39,661 nt of DNA. Origin: a virus. Numbering within the stretch: the stretch's first letter is position 1; every line of letters starts with the position of its first letter. The stretch lies in IMG/VR virus record IMGVR_UViG_3300032083_003038, positions 1 to 39,661 of that record; one strand, given 5' to 3'. A program made the position numbers and the translations under genes. The notes under the pieces are model-generated. The model did no database searches. It saw only the letters and a list, made by a program, of their open reading frames with translations, and had not been told where the DNA came from. Shown in pieces: positions 2,103-38,823 of this stretch.

Positions 2103-3639
2103 CATCGCGGACAGGCTATTTCCGAAACGTGCTTTGCAGAGTGCTGGCACGCTCACCAGCGGTCGAATCATTGAGCTTCTTCAGGGGCGGCAGTCAAAGG
2201 CCGGTGTGCCCGTCAATGTGGATGGTGCCTTGCGGATTTCTCCGATTTGGCAAGGGGTCACTCTGTTAAGCGGTGACGTGGCGAAGTTGGACTTTAATGT
2301 GTGGGAGCGACTCCAGCCACGAGGACGGCGGATCGCGCTCAATCATCCCACCTATTCGATGCTGACGGGTTCGATTGGTTCGGTGACGTCGAACATCTGG
2401 AAGCAATCGATCATGGCTAACGCGTTGCTGTATGGCAACGGTTATTCACGGATCATCTTTTCCGGGGTTCAACCGGTCGGGATGGAGTTCATTCCGAGTC
2501 GATTCGTAGTTCCCAAGGAAATGGATGACGGCGTTTTGTATTCGGTCAGACGTCCCCCCGATTTCGTCGAACAGCGCGTGATGGATTTCGAGATGTACCA
2601 TTTGAAAGGCCTCACGATAGATGCGTGGGGCGGACTCTCGTTAATCGATTACGCGCGGGACACCATCGGCCGACAGATTGCCCGAAACGATTACAACGAT
2701 GATTTCTTTTTAAACCATGCGGTTCCTGACGGGTGGTTCAGGCATCCGGCAGAGATGGGAGACAAGGCGCTTGAGAGGTTTGTCAAAGCCGTCGAACGCC
2801 GCCACTCAAAGCAGGGCAATCGTCACCGGTTGGGTGTGCTCGAGGAAGGCATGGACTGGGTCGGGATGGGGATCAGTCCCGAGGACATGTTGCTTATAGA
2901 ACAGCTTAAATTCGGTCGTCAAGAAGTTGCAGCACTGTTAAACCTTCCGCCGCACAAACTGGGCGACGAAACACGGGCAGCGTTCAACACGCTGGAGGAA
3001 GAAAACAAGAGCTACCATGATAGCTCCATTGGCGTTTGGCTTTGTCGCAAAGAATCCGAGGCGAACGATAAGCTGTTTACCGAAAAGGAAAAACGGGACC
3101 GCAGATTCTTCACGGAATTCAACCGGAACCAGTTATTCAGGCCGGACTTTAAATCGCGAATGGACGGGCATGCTCGCGTCGTCCTAGCTGGGATCCGGCC
3201 GCCGAACGAGGTCCGCGACGAGGAAGGGTGGAACCCAGTACCAGGCGGTGACGAACGTCTTATACCATTAAACGTGCGCCCTGAGTCTCAGATGCCGGAT
3301 GCCCGGCAACGCGGACACGATACGGAGCGACTCAAAAAGCTGCTAGCACGTGACGTCAAGCGAATGCACGAGCGACTGTCGACGTACATCACGCGATGGG
3401 TGAACAAAGGGGAATTCGTTCGTGCGCTTGAGTTATTGACAGAAAAGCACTCCGACGTGATGCGTGACGCCCTAGCGGATTACTTCGACGACGATCGAAC
3501 GGAGCGTATACTGACCAGCGTCAAGCAGCGTTGGATTGCCGCGGCTAACAAGTCGGACGGCGGGAACATCAACGAGGCCATCGATTCGGCCAACGCGGCC
3601 ATACTGAATGACATAAAGGAAATTTGCGATGTTAGTTGA
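2092..3639 (+). CDS. Portal protein, HK97 family
   Basis: Forms the dodecameric ring at the head vertex through which DNA enters and to which the tail joins. The GTG start at 2092 gives 515 residues; a longer frame begins at a TTG at 2011 but would run through the preceding membrane gene. Family features seen: SPIWQGVTLLSGDVAKL near the N terminus, a MANALLYGNGYSRI segment, GLSLIDYARDTIG, and the typical LKFGRQEVAALLNLPPHKLG with a later ETRAAFNTLEEE stretch, as in PF04860 portals. The C-terminal part is charged and helical. The stop overlaps the protease start by 11 bases, so the two are likely translationally coupled. Confidence 0.93.
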   Translation: MAIDIADRLFPKRALQSAGTLTSGRIIELLQGRQSKAGVPVNVDGALRISPIWQGVTLLSGDVAKLDFNVWERLQPRGRRIALNHPTYSMLTGSIGSVTSNIWKQSIMANALLYGNGYSRIIFSGVQPVGMEFIPSRFVVPKEMDDGVLYSVRRPPDFVEQRVMDFEMYHLKGLTIDAWGGLSLIDYARDTIGRQIARNDYNDDFFLNHAVPDGWFRHPAEMGDKALERFVKAVERRHSKQGNRHRLGVLEEGMDWVGMGISPEDMLLIEQLKFGRQEVAALLNLPPHKLGDETRAAFNTLEEENKSYHDSSIGVWLCRKESEANDKLFTEKEKRDRRFFTEFNRNQLFRPDFKSRMDGHARVVLAGIRPPNEVRDEEGWNPVPGGDERLIPLNVRPESQMPDARQRGHDTERLKKLLARDVKRMHERLSTYITRWVNKGEFVRALELLTEKHSDVMRDALADYFDDDRTERILTSVKQRWIAAANKSDGGNINEAIDSANAAILNDIKEICDVS

Positions 3640-11362: not shown

Positions 11363-11695
11363 ATGGCAGACGACGTCGTGGAAGTAGTTGTCAAGCGATT
11401 GACAGGAAAGAACAAGGGTTCAAATCATACTGTCGAATACGACGTCTTTCGTGTATTTGTCGTCGAGCTCGTACACGACACAGCCACGCGGCACAACTTG
11501 CGTCAAGAGCGATTCGTCGGTTATGCGTCAGAGAAAAACGAGCTGATCCTGATTCTTGAACCTATCAGCCAGTCGGAAGTCGAGGCCATTAGGTCAGCTG
11601 TTCAGAGAACGCTTGGCGAGCCAAAGCTGCGAGAGATCAAATGGAGAGTTTCAGACACCGAAGATGAACTACGCTTCAAGAAATCAGTTTGTTGA
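11363..11695 (+). CDS. Small tail-region protein
   Basis: 110 residues, start directly after the tube gene stop. Mixed strands and helices (VVEVVVKRLTG; YDVFRVFVVELV; LILILEPISQSEVEAIRSAVQRTLG). No family recognised. Its end overlaps the chaperone gene start at 11664, so it belongs to the tail operon. Confidence 0.6.
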   Translation: MADDVVEVVVKRLTGKNKGSNHTVEYDVFRVFVVELVHDTATRHNLRQERFVGYASEKNELILILEPISQSEVEAIRSAVQRTLGEPKLREIKWRVSDTEDELRFKKSVC

Positions 11696-12044
11696 GATTG
11701 CGGCACGGGACCGACGGTATGAGGATGTCCTGATCGACGGGGTCACGAGTCGTGTACGAAGTCTGACGGAATCGGAATTAGCTGAAGCGTTGGGACAACC
11801 GACGAATGCTGCCGAGCGTGCAACTTTAATACGGCTGATGGTTGTCGACGGGGAAGGCAACACGATATTTCGTGAAGGTGACGAAGAGTCAATCATTGCG
11901 GGAACACCAGCAGAGGTATCGGCGCCGTTATTTGACGCTTGCCAGAAACACCTACTGAACACGATAAAAAAAAAGAACTCGGGGAATGGGACCTTATTAG
12001 GCACGAACTCGCCTACCAATTCGGAGAACCAGATCCCGACGTGA
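11664..12044 (+). CDS. Tail assembly chaperone, gpG-like
   Basis: 126 residues from the ATG at 11664 (a longer frame upstream shadows the preceding gene). Content fits gpG-like chaperones: a short N-terminal region, VRSLTESELAEALG, AAERATLIRLMVVD, and acidic middle. The gene ends in a Lys run followed by a low-complexity Asn/Thr/Ser tail, as expected when a shorter product is made from a slippery site. It sits just before the tape measure gene. Confidence 0.75.
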   Translation: MNYASRNQFVEIAARDRRYEDVLIDGVTSRVRSLTESELAEALGQPTNAAERATLIRLMVVDGEGNTIFREGDEESIIAGTPAEVSAPLFDACQKHLLNTIKKKNSGNGTLLGTNSPTNSENQIPT

Positions 12045-27963: not shown

Positions 27964-28632
27964 ATGGCGACAGCGACACTACCTTCCAAACGGGAGATTT
28001 CGACGGCCCTTAAAAGCGTCGAGGTGCAGCTTGAGTTTGACTACGAGCGGGCGGGAGTCACTAGCGCGGACCAAAAGGCGCTCGAAAAAATCGGCAGCGA
28101 TATTGAAGACAAGACCGTAACGGCTCACGAAGTCAACACCGCCAACTTTCTGGAGGTTGGCGCGTTGTTCTCCGCAGCAAAAACAATTTTCGGCGCGGAC
28201 AACGACGGTCACATAACGGACTTCGGCCGGGCTCACGGTTGGACAGCACAGCGCACGAACGGGGCGATTCTCTGCCATGAGAAGTTCGGCGACAGGCGAG
28301 ATGACGCGATGTTGTTCTCGCCGACGGCGCTCATGCTCATCGCCAAAACGGAGGATGCGAAGTTTATTAAGCGTATGCTTGATGCGGCCGCTCAAAGCGA
28401 CGTCCGGCACGTCTCGGTCGAGCAGGTTCGGGCCATTATGGGCGAGCGCGAACCCGCGTCCCCAGAAAAGACGATAGAGTTTAAGACGAACAATCCCAAG
28501 ACGTTAAAAGAAGCGGCTGAATATTTCACAAAAAAGGCTGAAAACTGCCAAAAACGCTGGGACGGCGAGATAGCGGCGGATGTCCCGAAGGCGCTCATGA
28601 TGGCGGCTAGTGCGCTGAAGTCGAAGGCTTAG
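27964..28632 (+). CDS. DUF3102-like regulatory protein
   Basis: 222 residues, first gene of the rightward operon. The middle (NFLEVGALFSAAKTIFGADN, then FGRAHGWTAQRTNGAILCHE) matches the general pattern of DUF3102-type proteins, in which a helix-turn-helix-like region follows an EVG-L-AK motif; the C-terminal third is helical (LKEAAEYFTKKAENCQKRWD). Position next to a divergent promoter suggests a regulator or replication accessory. Function not established. Confidence 0.55.
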   Translation: MATATLPSKREISTALKSVEVQLEFDYERAGVTSADQKALEKIGSDIEDKTVTAHEVNTANFLEVGALFSAAKTIFGADNDGHITDFGRAHGWTAQRTNGAILCHEKFGDRRDDAMLFSPTALMLIAKTEDAKFIKRMLDAAAQSDVRHVSVEQVRAIMGEREPASPEKTIEFKTNNPKTLKEAAEYFTKKAENCQKRWDGEIAADVPKALMMAASALKSKA

Positions 28633-28640
28633 TGGACGAC

Positions 28641-29075
28641 ATGAACCTAACCGAGTTCCACCGCGACGCGATTTTATTCGCGCTGGCAACGGCTGATTAC
28701 AACCAAATCCGCACGCGATCGTTCCAGACACGGCACGTCAGATACACCAAGGACTTCCTTGTCATGATGACCGTGAACAAGTGACTGACGTTTAACAACG
28801 GCGAGCCGGTCTGGCACGTCTCAGCGAGTCACAAGAGCAAAGAAAATACGCGAGGTTGGCGCAGGAAACGGCTGAAGGCTGCGATGCTCGTCTGCCTACA
28901 CACACTTGGCACGGCCGGCTGCGGCCAAAAATGGGCATTCCTAACCGATCCCCCTGGATTGGCTGTTCATCTTCAGCGGGGAATGACCGACGAAGAACGG
29001 TCTTTGCTTTCCGATGAATGGCTAGAAATTCCTGCTCGCGATGAGCTTGGACCAATAATCAAGGTCGAACTTTGA
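28641..29075 (+). pseudogene. Gene interrupted by an in-frame TGA (possible readthrough)
   Basis: From the ATG at 28641 the frame encodes 47 residues (MNLTEFHRDAILFALATADY ... LVMMTVNK) and stops at TGA 28782-28784. In the same frame, without any shift, coding sequence continues for 96 more residues (LTFNNGEPVWHVSASHKSKE, later EERSLLSDEWLEIPARDELG) to 29075. Both halves look like one protein. The stop is followed by C, a weak termination context. It may be a decayed gene, a sequencing error or a leaky stop. No family recognised. Confidence 0.6.
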
Positions 29076-29130
29076 AGGCTCAAATGGTCGCATTGACACG
29101 GCAAAACGAACCTGCACAATAACGCCCTAT

Positions 29131-29214
29131 CGGATGCCCGCACCACCCGAACAAATAACCCCAAGGGTTTACCTCGTGGCCGCTCTTGCGGGCATCCGCC
29201 ACGAGGGTTTTTTT
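29131..29214 (+). terminator. Terminator with interleaved second stem (attenuator-like)
   Basis: A terminator: CCTCGTGGC at 29172-29180 pairs with GCCACGAGG at 29198-29206, followed by G and seven T. A second perfect 11-bp pairing crosses it: CGGATGCCCGC at 29131-29141 with GCGGGCATCCG at 29188-29198, whose right arm lies in the terminator loop. The two stems can form a pseudoknot or compete. A third small hairpin AACCC-CAA-GGGTT lies at 29157-29169. It sits 11 bases before the replication gene. Confidence 0.75.
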
Positions 29215-29224
29215 GGATTGCGCC

Positions 29225-29632
29225 ATGGATCAAGGATGGCTGAAACTGTGGAGGAAATCAAAGAACTCCGCTGTTTTCAAGGATCCGCTGTTGTGGCACC
29301 TCTGGTCTTGGCTGTTGATGTCCGCAAATTGGGAACGAAAACAGCTTCTAAATGGGTCCGAGCTCGAGATGGGAACCCTGATTTTGTCTTTGGAAGCGGT
29401 CGGTCGAGAATTTGGCTGCGACAAAAGCACAGTGAGTAGGCGACTAAAACGATTGCAAAAACTCGGAAATATCGCAACGGTTGGTGCAACGGCTGGAACT
29501 GTCGTAACTATATGCAACTGGGAGACTTATCAACACGACGATTCAGATGGTGCAACGATTGGTGCAACGACGGTGCAACGACGGTGCAACGACGGTGCAA
29601 ACAGAAGAAGAAAGAAAGAAGGGAAGAAGTAA
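29225..29632 (+). CDS. Replication initiator-like protein, N-terminal part
   Basis: 135 residues from the ATG at 29225. It opens with QGWLKLWRKSKNSAVFKDPL and SWLLMSANWERKQLLNGSEL, then a winged helix (FGCDKSTVSRRLKRLQKLGN) and TVVTICNWETYQHDD. This is the standard N-terminal domain of phage O-like/DnaD-like replisome organisers, which bind the origin. The matching C-terminal domain lies in another frame downstream (29547-30044). The frame is lost just after the 11-bp tandem repeats and ends in a Lys/Arg-rich tail at 29632. Confidence 0.75.
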   Translation: MDQGWLKLWRKSKNSAVFKDPLLWHLWSWLLMSANWERKQLLNGSELEMGTLILSLEAVGREFGCDKSTVSRRLKRLQKLGNIATVGATAGTVVTICNWETYQHDDSDGATIGATTVQRRCNDGANRRRKKEGKK

Positions 29633-30044
29633 AGAAGAAAGAAGTAAAGAAGAAGCGCATCATCAACCTCACCGTAGCGCACATAGCACCGACGAGGTCG
29701 GTGATGCGTTCGACCGTTTTTGGTCGGTGGTACACCACAAGGTGGGGAAGGGGCACGCCAGGAAGGCATTTCAGCGAGCCGTGAAGGGCGGAACACCCGC
29801 CGAGGTGATAATCGCAGCGATGACAGAATTTGCTCAGACGCCCGATGCGTCTCCGAGAGACCGGACACCGATTCACCCCACAACCTGGATCAACGCCGAA
29901 CGCTGGGACGACGACAGAGGAGCGTGGCAAGTGACTGGCGGCCTTTTTCCGACAAATAATAATTCCGACGGGGACGGTGAAGACCCGGTCGAGAAAATGG
30001 TTGCCGATTTAAAAAAATACCGAGCGGAGCAAGCCGAAAAATGA
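29547..30044 (+). CDS. Replication initiator-like protein, C-terminal part in another frame
   Basis: The frame open from 29547 to 30044 encodes, after a charged repeat linker, FDRFWSVVHHKVGKGHARKA, then FQRAVKGGTPAEVIIAAMTE and PIHPTTWINAERWDDD. This is the conserved C-terminal domain of phage O-like replication proteins (FW...K..A...A, then P.TWLN..RW). It lies +1 relative to the N-terminal part. No good ribosome-binding site precedes the ATG at 29547, so it probably depends on fusion with the upstream frame. The ATGA overlap with the next gene suggests it is normally expressed. Confidence 0.7.
   Translation: MVQRLVQRRCNDGATTVQTEEERKKGRSKEERSKEEAHHQPHRSAHSTDEVGDAFDRFWSVVHHKVGKGHARKAFQRAVKGGTPAEVIIAAMTEFAQTPDASPRDRTPIHPTTWINAERWDDDRGAWQVTGGLFPTNNNSDGDGEDPVEKMVADLKKYRAEQAEK
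29549..29600 (+). repeat. 11-bp tandem repeat at the frame break
   Basis: Three perfect copies of GGTGCAACGAC at 29561-29571, 29572-29582 and 29583-29593, preceded by a 12-base variant (GGTGCAACGATT, 29549-29560) and followed by a partial GGTGCAA to 29600. The unit is not a multiple of three, so each gain or loss changes the reading frame. All three frames are open across it. Just beyond, a 15-bp purine repeat (29626-29640 and 29641-29655) does not alter frame. Confidence 0.95.
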
Positions 30045-30829
30045 ATTCCAACGAATTTGACGAGTGGGTGACCTACCACGGAAAACGATTTTCGGTGCTG
30101 CGGGACGTGCCGTCGGAGAAAAAAGAAATCTGGCGTACAGACGTGCTGCAGCGGTTCAGGTTGTCCGAGCTGAAGGCCGCGACGGACGCGATCCTCCGCG
30201 GCGAAGAGACTCACCCGAACCGGTTCGAGGTCGACAACTTGCCCGGCATGCTCGCCAGGATTGTTTACCGGCTGCGGCGCGAGGGGGGCGATCAGTTGCG
30301 GCAGTGGGAGGAAGAAGTTAACCGCCCGATCGAGCCAGCGACCGAGGGCGGCGCCCGCGGCCCAACGATGTGGCAGCTGCTGGAATCGATTCGAGAGGAA
30401 CGGCAACGGTGCATTTTCGAGCAGCTGATGGAGCACATTAGCGGCGGTGGTGACAAGTCAACTTTCCAACCTGACTACTCGCGCGTGACGTCAGAAACGT
30501 TGGCGTCGTTGGATTCGCTTTGCGATGGCAGCACCGACCCGCGCGATCACTACGGATGTCTGCGGTGTCGCGATACGGGTCTCTTGCCGATTTGGTCTTA
30601 CATCACCGTGCGCGATGTCTTCGAGCGACCCGATGCGATTCGTTGGCGAGTCGTGCACTGCGCTTGCGAGTGTTGCCCTCATCCGGACGGCAATGGCTCT
30701 AAAATCAACAAGTGGTCGGAGCATCGAAACGTTCCGCGGTTCAATCCGAAAACGATGGTTCCAGCGGAACCGAAAGACTCACGCGAAAAACTTTTCGAGT
30801 GGTGTCGAGTGAAAGGAGCGACGAATTGA
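30041..30829 (+). CDS. Possible helicase loader or replication accessory protein
   Basis: 262 residues. The N-terminal 75 (FDEWVTYHGKRFSVLRDVPS, then LSELKAATDAILRGEETHPN) look like the helical start of phage replication-loader proteins. A middle zinc-binding region has YGCLRCRDTGLL and HCACECC about 30 residues apart. No Walker motif is present, so it is not a DnaC-type ATPase. It overlaps the upstream replication gene by four bases, which links it to replication. Confidence 0.55.
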   Translation: MNSNEFDEWVTYHGKRFSVLRDVPSEKKEIWRTDVLQRFRLSELKAATDAILRGEETHPNRFEVDNLPGMLARIVYRLRREGGDQLRQWEEEVNRPIEPATEGGARGPTMWQLLESIREERQRCIFEQLMEHISGGGDKSTFQPDYSRVTSETLASLDSLCDGSTDPRDHYGCLRCRDTGLLPIWSYITVRDVFERPDAIRWRVVHCACECCPHPDGNGSKINKWSEHRNVPRFNPKTMVPAEPKDSREKLFEWCRVKGATN

Positions 30830-37263: not shown

Positions 37264-38823
37264 ATGTTTAAGCCGGAACCCCTAGAGCATCGATTGCTCT
37301 TGTCCGTGGACACTGGATCGCTTTTGGTCCATGTGTCCGATGCGTTCATTGCTGAGGAGCACGCTTCAATTGATGGCATGTCCCTTGGTGTCATTGGCTC
37401 AAGCGGCTACGGCCAGCTGAATCACGCAGGCATCGACCAAAGCAAGGCGAAGTTGGCGGCTCTGAATAGCGGGCTGTTCGATTACGTCGGTCCGAATCCA
37501 ATTCTGACTGTGGACGTAGTCCCCGACGACCCGCTGTTCTCGCGGCTCTGGGGGATGGAAAAGATCGATGCGCCAACCGCATGGGACACGGTTACTGACG
37601 CCAGCGGTGTGGTCGTCGCTTCGATCGATACGGGCGTCGAACTAACGCATCCCGACCTGGCCGCGAACATCTGGACCAATCCGGGCGAAATACCGGGCAA
37701 CGGAATTGATGACGACAATAACGGGTTTATCGATGACGTCCACGGCTGGGATTTCGTCAACAACGACAACGACCCGATTGACGATCATTTCCACGGCAGC
37801 CATACGAGCGGGACGCTGGGAGCTGTCGGGAATAACGCCGAGGGCGTCGTAGGTGTTGCTTGGTCCGTTCAGATCATCGCCTTGAAATCGTTCAGTTCAT
37901 CTGGCTCTGGTAGCCTCGGCAACATCATTCCGGCGATCGATTACGCTGCGGATATGCAATCGCACATCAGCAACAACAGTTGGGGCGGTCGTGCTGTGCC
38001 GACTGATCCCGCTTGGGCACCGCTCCGGGAGAGTATCGAGCGGGCGGGGCAAATCGCTGACCACTTGTTCGTCGCGAGCTCCGGAAACAGCAACACGGAC
38101 AACGATACGTCTCTTCTAAAGAATTTACCGGCCGCTTGGGATTCGCCGAACATCCTGAGCGTGGCAGCCAGCACGCAGACAGACGGAAAAGCAAGTTTTA
38201 GCAGCTATGGCTTGACGACGATCGACCTTGCTGCACCAGGTGTCGCCGTGCATAGCGCAGGGCTGGGCGGAACCTATCGCGATGCCTCGGGAACATCGAT
38301 GTCTTCGCCACACGTTTCGGGTACAGCGGCCCTATTGAAAGCCCAGAATCCTGACTGGGGCTATCAGGAAATTACAGACCGCATCATGGCGACGGTCGAT
38401 CGTGTTGGCCCGTGGGACGGTCTGGTGATCAGCGGTGGACGCTTGAATGCAGCGGCAGCTGTTGGCGATGCACCACCACCCCCACCCCCACCCCCACCTC
38501 CACCACCGCCCCCGCCGCCTGAAAACCGGGCACCAATCGCGGAACCTGATTCCTTCGGGGCGCGAAAGGTCATCAACGCCAATTCCAAATCGTCGATTCT
38601 AAATAACGATACGGACCCGGATGGCGATCCGATTTTCGCGGTACTCGTTGACGGGCAAAGTCATGGCACGATGTCCCTGTCCCTCGACGGGCGTTTCCAC
38701 TACAAAGCAGAGAAGGGCTTTTCAGGCTTGGACAGCTTCAGCTACAAGGCGGTGGACATCCATGGCGCGGAATCCGAGGTTGTGCTTGTGGAATTGGATG
38801 TTTTGGGAACGGGGAAGCGTTGA
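37264..38823 (+). CDS. Subtilisin-like protease with LEPR-type N terminus
   Basis: 519 residues. FKPEPLEHRLLLS at 2-14 is a close variant of the planctomycete LEPR-XLL start motif. The S8 catalytic domain is complete: D122 in ASIDTGVELTHPDL, H177 in FHGSHTSGT, oxyanion N275 in ASSGN, and S345 in GTSMSSPHVSGTAALL. DDDNNGFIDD at 149-158 may bind calcium. A run of 16 Pro follows (about 405-420), then a cadherin-like/VCBS-type domain (NRAPIAEPDSFGARK ... DSFSYKAVD). It should be exported, cut proteins, and bind a surface through the C-terminal domain. Unusual in a phage; probably acquired from the host. Confidence 0.9.
   Translation: MFKPEPLEHRLLLSVDTGSLLVHVSDAFIAEEHASIDGMSLGVIGSSGYGQLNHAGIDQSKAKLAALNSGLFDYVGPNPILTVDVVPDDPLFSRLWGMEKIDAPTAWDTVTDASGVVVASIDTGVELTHPDLAANIWTNPGEIPGNGIDDDNNGFIDDVHGWDFVNNDNDPIDDHFHGSHTSGTLGAVGNNAEGVVGVAWSVQIIALKSFSSSGSGSLGNIIPAIDYAADMQSHISNNSWGGRAVPTDPAWAPLRESIERAGQIADHLFVASSGNSNTDNDTSLLKNLPAAWDSPNILSVAASTQTDGKASFSSYGLTTIDLAAPGVAVHSAGLGGTYRDASGTSMSSPHVSGTAALLKAQNPDWGYQEITDRIMATVDRVGPWDGLVISGGRLNAAAAVGDAPPPPPPPPPPPPPPPPENRAPIAEPDSFGARKVINANSKSSILNNDTDPDGDPIFAVLVDGQSHGTMSLSLDGRFHYKAEKGFSGLDSFSYKAVDIHGAESEVVLVELDVLGTGKR

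Follow-up and report, generated by a model that had tools for sequence, protein, structure and literature searches.

An 11-bp repeat array at the break in a split phage replication initiator gene is very probably an iteron array of an origin embedded in that gene

Why would a tailed phage carry its replication initiator gene in two reading frames, with a short tandem repeat at the point where the frame is lost? The locus that raises this question lies in a 39,661-base IMG/VR virus record, the whole of which was analysed and is referred to here as the window; the head, packaging, and tape-measure genes present confirm that it is from a tailed phage. The N-terminal ORF (29225–29632, + strand) begins with the ATG at 29225 and ends with the stop codon at 29630–29632. 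The C-terminal domain is encoded in another frame, which is open from 29508 to 30044 and has its first ATG at 29547 (C-terminal ORF, 29547–30044, + strand). The gene that follows (30041–30829, + strand) overlaps the C-terminal ORF by 4 bp (ATGA) and matches no known family. A first-pass annotation of the window had described these ORFs as the two domains of an O-like initiator, separated at an array of 11-bp units whose slippage might switch the gene on and off.

The two parts were compared with PHROG profiles. The N part matched PHROG 2514, a DnaD-like helicase loader (E 8e-22), and the C part matched PHROG 270, 9474, and 9327, which are replication initiation/primosomal families (best E 3e-16). 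The N-terminal ORF consists of a predicted winged-helix DNA-binding domain (approximately residues 1–103), for which the AlphaFold2 model has a winged helix-turn-helix (wHTH) topology with a mean pLDDT of 75, followed by an out-of-frame tail. The C-terminal ORF contains a helical initiator C-terminal domain at about 29690–29930, and no convincing PDB match was found for its fold. When the two frames are joined, 86% of the length of the read-through protein is matched by a protein of Vibrio phage 1.133.O that is encoded in one ORF. The two ORFs are thus parts of one initiator gene, as first proposed, but the N domain belongs with DnaD-like/replisome-organizer domains and resembles O-like families only weakly (phrog_391, E 0.009).

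The putative iteron array that separates the two domains was recovered by Tandem Repeats Finder (TRF) at 29549–29600 (+ strand) with a period of 11, 4.6 copies, and a score of 88, compared with a top score of 56 among 20 Markov surrogates of the whole window. It consists of a 12-nt imperfect unit (29549–29560), three perfect GGTGCAACGAC units (29561–29593), and a partial unit (29594–29600), with five GGTGCAA cores starting at 29549, 29561, 29572, 29583, and 29594. Two joined units had no exact match in IMG/VR or in the GTDB genomes. A likelihood scan based on the window's own codon usage placed the frame change at 29567–29576, within the array. The ORFs, the TRF result, and the codon-usage likelihood therefore agree that the N and C domains lie in different frames and that the break is at the 11-bp array, and the arithmetic given at first annotation also holds: adding 11 bp or removing 22 bp aligns both frames. 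Two further elements accompany the array on the + strand. A candidate upstream iteron copy, TTGGTGCAACG, is located at 29481–29491, where the wing is encoded and 50 bp ahead of the YQ motif, and a copy occurs at a similar position in many relatives. Downstream, an A/G-rich tract at 29603–29654 with a 15-bp periodicity (3.5 copies by TRF) is a candidate unwinding element and holds the N-frame stop codon. This purine tract consists mostly of AAG, AAA, and TAA triplets, which presumably recall DnaA-trio-like unwinding elements.

The sequence around the break bears on two ways in which the gene could work as it stands. Programmed recoding, whether by a +1 or −2 frameshift or by polymerase slippage, would join the frames during expression, and the 83 nt over which they overlap (29547–29629) would leave room for it. 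However, the longest run of A in the overlap is three, no recognised +1 or −2 slippery site is present there, and a −1 shift would enter the third frame, which reaches a stop codon at 29782 without encoding the C domain; we give this explanation almost no credence. Alternatively, the DNA-binding and C-terminal domains could be two independently made proteins, the second translated from an internal start. The ATG at 29547 is in the C frame, and standalone C-domain genes exist in two other phages (L063 and L066), but this ATG lacks a Shine-Dalgarno sequence, no in-frame ATG, GTG, or TTG occurs between 29598 and 29726, and the nearest two-domain relatives (L010 and L092) use a single ORF, making the arrangement very improbable. 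Nor did the relatives turn out to have two separate genes, an outcome that the first-pass annotation had allowed for; they carry one gene. The standalone C-domain genes (L063, 2986–3345; L066, 3064–3465) are each located directly after a RusA-like gene and lack a winged-helix domain.

N-domain relatives were gathered from IMG/VR, GTDB genomes, and phage records, resulting in 104 distinct genes, 100 of which were anchored on the NWxxYQ motif. Because the relatives were found via N-domain motifs, shortened genes would be seen, and the sample is composed of the best-scoring loci only. In exact-peptide scans, IMG/VR yielded nothing close to the N half, and the C domain had only a 43% relative (L002); linker lengths differ widely among the nearest relatives. 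In nearly all relatives, the DNA directly 3' of the NWxxYQ motif is rich in repeats, with local repeats making up 51% of the post-motif bases and 6.5% of the bases in the N domain (first set, n = 53). The spacings of these repeats are spread evenly modulo 3 (78, 68, and 82 pairs, where synonymous shuffling predicts 25, 7.5, and 8), and protein repeats are therefore not their cause. This even spacing and the synonymous-shuffle tests together ruled out an N/Q/T-rich linker peptide of repetitive sequence as the source of the repeats. Among 97 distinct relatives, the autocorrelation of the linker DNA at lag 11 was 0.528, compared with 0.401 in synonymous shuffles (z 17.7), with additional peaks at 22, 33, and 44. 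The best lag was 11 in 60 of the 97 genes and 11, 22, or 33 in 81 of them, and a control stretch within the N domain had no such peak. Intact ORFs with 11-bp arrays were also found in relatives from a 392-genome sample of the phylum, presumed to be Planctomycetota, to which a Phycisphaerae MAG belongs.

Direct repeats between the two domains, inside the gene, are thus conserved across the family as DNA, with units that vary by phage: GGACAACCAAA in L014, CCACCGACAAC in L103, GCGAACACGGC in L095, and ACAACAAATCA in Staphylococcus phage HSA84. As these units are not the same from one phage to the next, pattern and not sequence is the basis for matching them to the protein. The other elements recur as well. 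A wing-coding copy of at least 9 bp was detected in 52 of 98 genes, compared with 5 of 98 in each control stretch, and is mostly located about 45–60 bp ahead of the YQ motif. An A-rich tract (46% A) that follows the array likewise recurs in the family. On the strength of this family-wide pattern and of precedent in other replicons, the array in the window is very probably the iteron array of a replication origin and not a phase-variation tract.

Whether relatives keep the initiator frame was assessed from the length left open past the array, counted from 90 nt after the NWxxYQ motif. The frame stayed open for at least 60 codons in 93 of 97 relatives (median 130), whereas 3 of 194 wrong frames were open that far. 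In the window, 3 codons remain in the initiator's own frame past the array, compared with 140 in the next frame. Frame breaks within the array were absent from all other relatives, and the few short ones among them either terminate elsewhere or have a naturally short protein. Several candidate parallels to the window were accordingly rejected: L251 stops within the C domain, in L269 and L361/L362 the protein is short by nature and the end of its gene is overlapped by a DnaC-like gene, and L295 has tandem paralogues, the first of which has only the N domain and ends before any array. The L295 locus (2501–3500), from a Sphingobacterium genome, contains two tandem initiator-like genes, the first with an N domain only and the second with a linker and tail. 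Length variation was visible among 46 near-identical Staphylococcus phage contigs. Measured from the upstream flank, the array ended at 108 bp in 41 of them; two contigs had the array end at 75 bp, one had it at 96 bp, and two could not be measured. Two of these variants lack exactly three units (33 bp), one lacks 12 bp, and none is out of frame; where variation is visible, unit number changes only in frame-keeping steps. That the relatives stay open and that the visible length changes keep the frame argues that the initiator frame is under selection.

These comparisons weigh against phase variation, in which slippage would deliberately alternate between the complete initiator and a form reduced to the N domain, which would bind iterons but not recruit the helicase. 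The unit arithmetic permits such a switch, the three perfect units could slip, and the N-only product of 135 aa would retain the DNA-binding domain. Phase-variable contingency genes also contain tandem repeats with a unit length not divisible by 3 and have their frame set by the unit count, as does the window gene. However, the window gene is an essential replication gene, its repeat is explained as putative binding sites, and its relatives keep their frame. Out-of-frame alleles do not recur among the relatives, none of which is broken in the array, the Staphylococcus phage arrays differ only by frame-keeping steps, and the array has another, sufficient putative function. The proposal of phase variation by slippage consequently found no support, as the repeat resembles a conserved iteron array with different units in most relatives, and we consider a deliberate switch improbable; switching by slippage is not a family trait of these initiators. 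In a bolder version, single-unit slippage would couple the strength of the origin to which form of initiator is made, because the period of 11 is not divisible by 3 and the array is inside the gene, with the window representing a genome caught "off". In-frame counts would then yield a helicase-recruiting protein; with out-of-frame counts only the N domain would be made, and by binding iterons it could lower the replication of every copy in the cell. We find this coupling similarly hard to credit.

Slippage and miscounting in assembly, both suggested at first annotation, were retained as possible causes of the split. If the break is technical, the assembly or the library lost or gained units, the true genome is in frame, and the origin within the gene is unaffected. 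Every other relative has an array that keeps the frame, perfect tandem units are prone to miscounting, and no other major gene was seen to be broken in the window in a look that was not systematic. The array, however, spans only 52 bp, less than one ordinary short read, and collapse would not be expected at good coverage; a technical break is therefore possible but rather unlikely. We instead favor, as the probable though by no means certain reading, a replisome-organizer gene with the origin in its linker-coding DNA, in which the split most likely reflects a recent frame-breaking change of unit number in the sampled genome. As the C frame is clean for 140 codons past the array, the change is either recent or not real. 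A real frame-breaking unit change ranks as the most likely cause, a technical miscount comes next, and a regulated switch is unlikely. The window gene has the replisome-organizer type of N domain (PHROG 2514) and the intragenic repeats, but its frame is broken in the contig where the relatives are intact and encode a single full-length protein; it is accordingly classed as a broken copy of a replisome organizer with an intragenic origin, not as an intact member.

In the mechanism that we propose for this embedded origin, the N-terminal winged helix would bind the 11-bp iterons, spaced one helical turn apart, as well as the copy in the wing-coding stretch. The A-rich tract beside the iterons would then melt, and the C-terminal domain would recruit the host helicase or primase. 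The iterons would do their work as DNA, and since 11 bp is not a whole number of codons, one or two units more or fewer would put the gene out of frame. The sampled genome would in that case be a variant, either defective or in the minority, and not one state of a purpose-built switch.

Origins of this kind have precedents. In lambda O, the iterons lie inside the initiator gene, between the DNA-binding and partner-binding domains and beside an A-rich stretch. The array in the window is likewise in the gene, between domains, and next to an A-rich stretch, although the lambda iterons are longer than its 11-bp units. Among lactococcal P335 phages, TP901-1 ORF13 and Tuc2009 Rep each bind direct repeats within the gene that encodes them, and these repeat regions function as the ori (PMC8965321); the record of Tuc2009 rep (Rep2009/orf16) is annotated "contains origin of replication". 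In a repeat scan with Tuc2009 rep and its homologue r1t orf11 as positive controls, both genes had an 11-bp repeat (3.6 copies in r1t) with a 15-bp repeat after it, the same order as in the window. TP901-1, whose intragenic origin has been shown experimentally, contained 15-bp repeats only and no 11-bp repeat in the scan. The window N domain has no detectable sequence relation to Tuc2009 or TP901-1, and whereas these two phages have a known intragenic ori, the one in the window is predicted from sequence and its gene is out of frame.

The RepA_N plasmid initiators of pSK41 and pTZ2162 resemble the window gene in having a wHTH N domain, a linker encoded by what in the window is putative origin DNA, and a separate C domain. 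The boxes bound by the N domain of pSK41 Rep are located within the rep gene; Rep can dispense with the linker peptide that the ori encodes, but not with its C domain (PMC5703833). The iteron repeats of pSK41 and pTZ2162 are 8–9 bp (PMC7145576), compared with 11 bp in the window. The window N-domain model aligned to 4pql (Z 8.2) and to the RepA structure 4PT7 (Z 7.9; PMC7145576) over 84 residues with 10% identity, tied with CRP-type wHTH proteins. A search of the window gene with the Pfam RepA_N family (PF06970) gave no hit up to E 0.1, and only generic HTH families matched. As the N domain fits RepA_N no better than other winged helices and the Pfam family was not hit, RepA_N appears here as an analogue, not as a family label.

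Upstream of the initiator gene, two overlapping, mutually exclusive hairpins formed by perfect inverted repeats (29131–29206, in a region extending to 29215, + strand) suggest an attenuator-like leader. The first has 12-bp arms (29131–29142/29187–29198), and the second has 9-bp arms (29172–29180/29198–29206) followed by a run of T. The fold z-score of this leader is only −1.2, a comparable pair of inverted repeats was absent upstream of five relatives, and Rfam gave no match within 28600–30600. Elsewhere in the window, the overlapping ORFs at 11363–11695 and 11556–12044 are positioned just ahead of the tape-measure gene, the usual site of a frameshifted tail-assembly chaperone pair. The product of the gene at 37264–38823 is a subtilase (Peptidase_S8, 5e-48) that also contains Ig/cadherin-like domains and has LEHRLLLS as an N-terminal motif. 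We take this motif to be typical of Planctomycetota proteins, and the subtilase suggests a planctomycete host or a host-derived flank.

No report of a family-wide 11-bp rule was found in the literature searched, which did not extend to subscription papers such as the r1t paper. The kind of system is already known, and the useful part is the rule itself across the family. With it, the origin could be located from sequence alone in this initiator family, as an 11-bp array just after the NWxxYQ motif together with the copy in the wing-coding stretch, and this would apply to phages and prophages of several bacterial phyla. The rule also predicts that unit number can shift only by threes (33 bp) without breaking the initiator.
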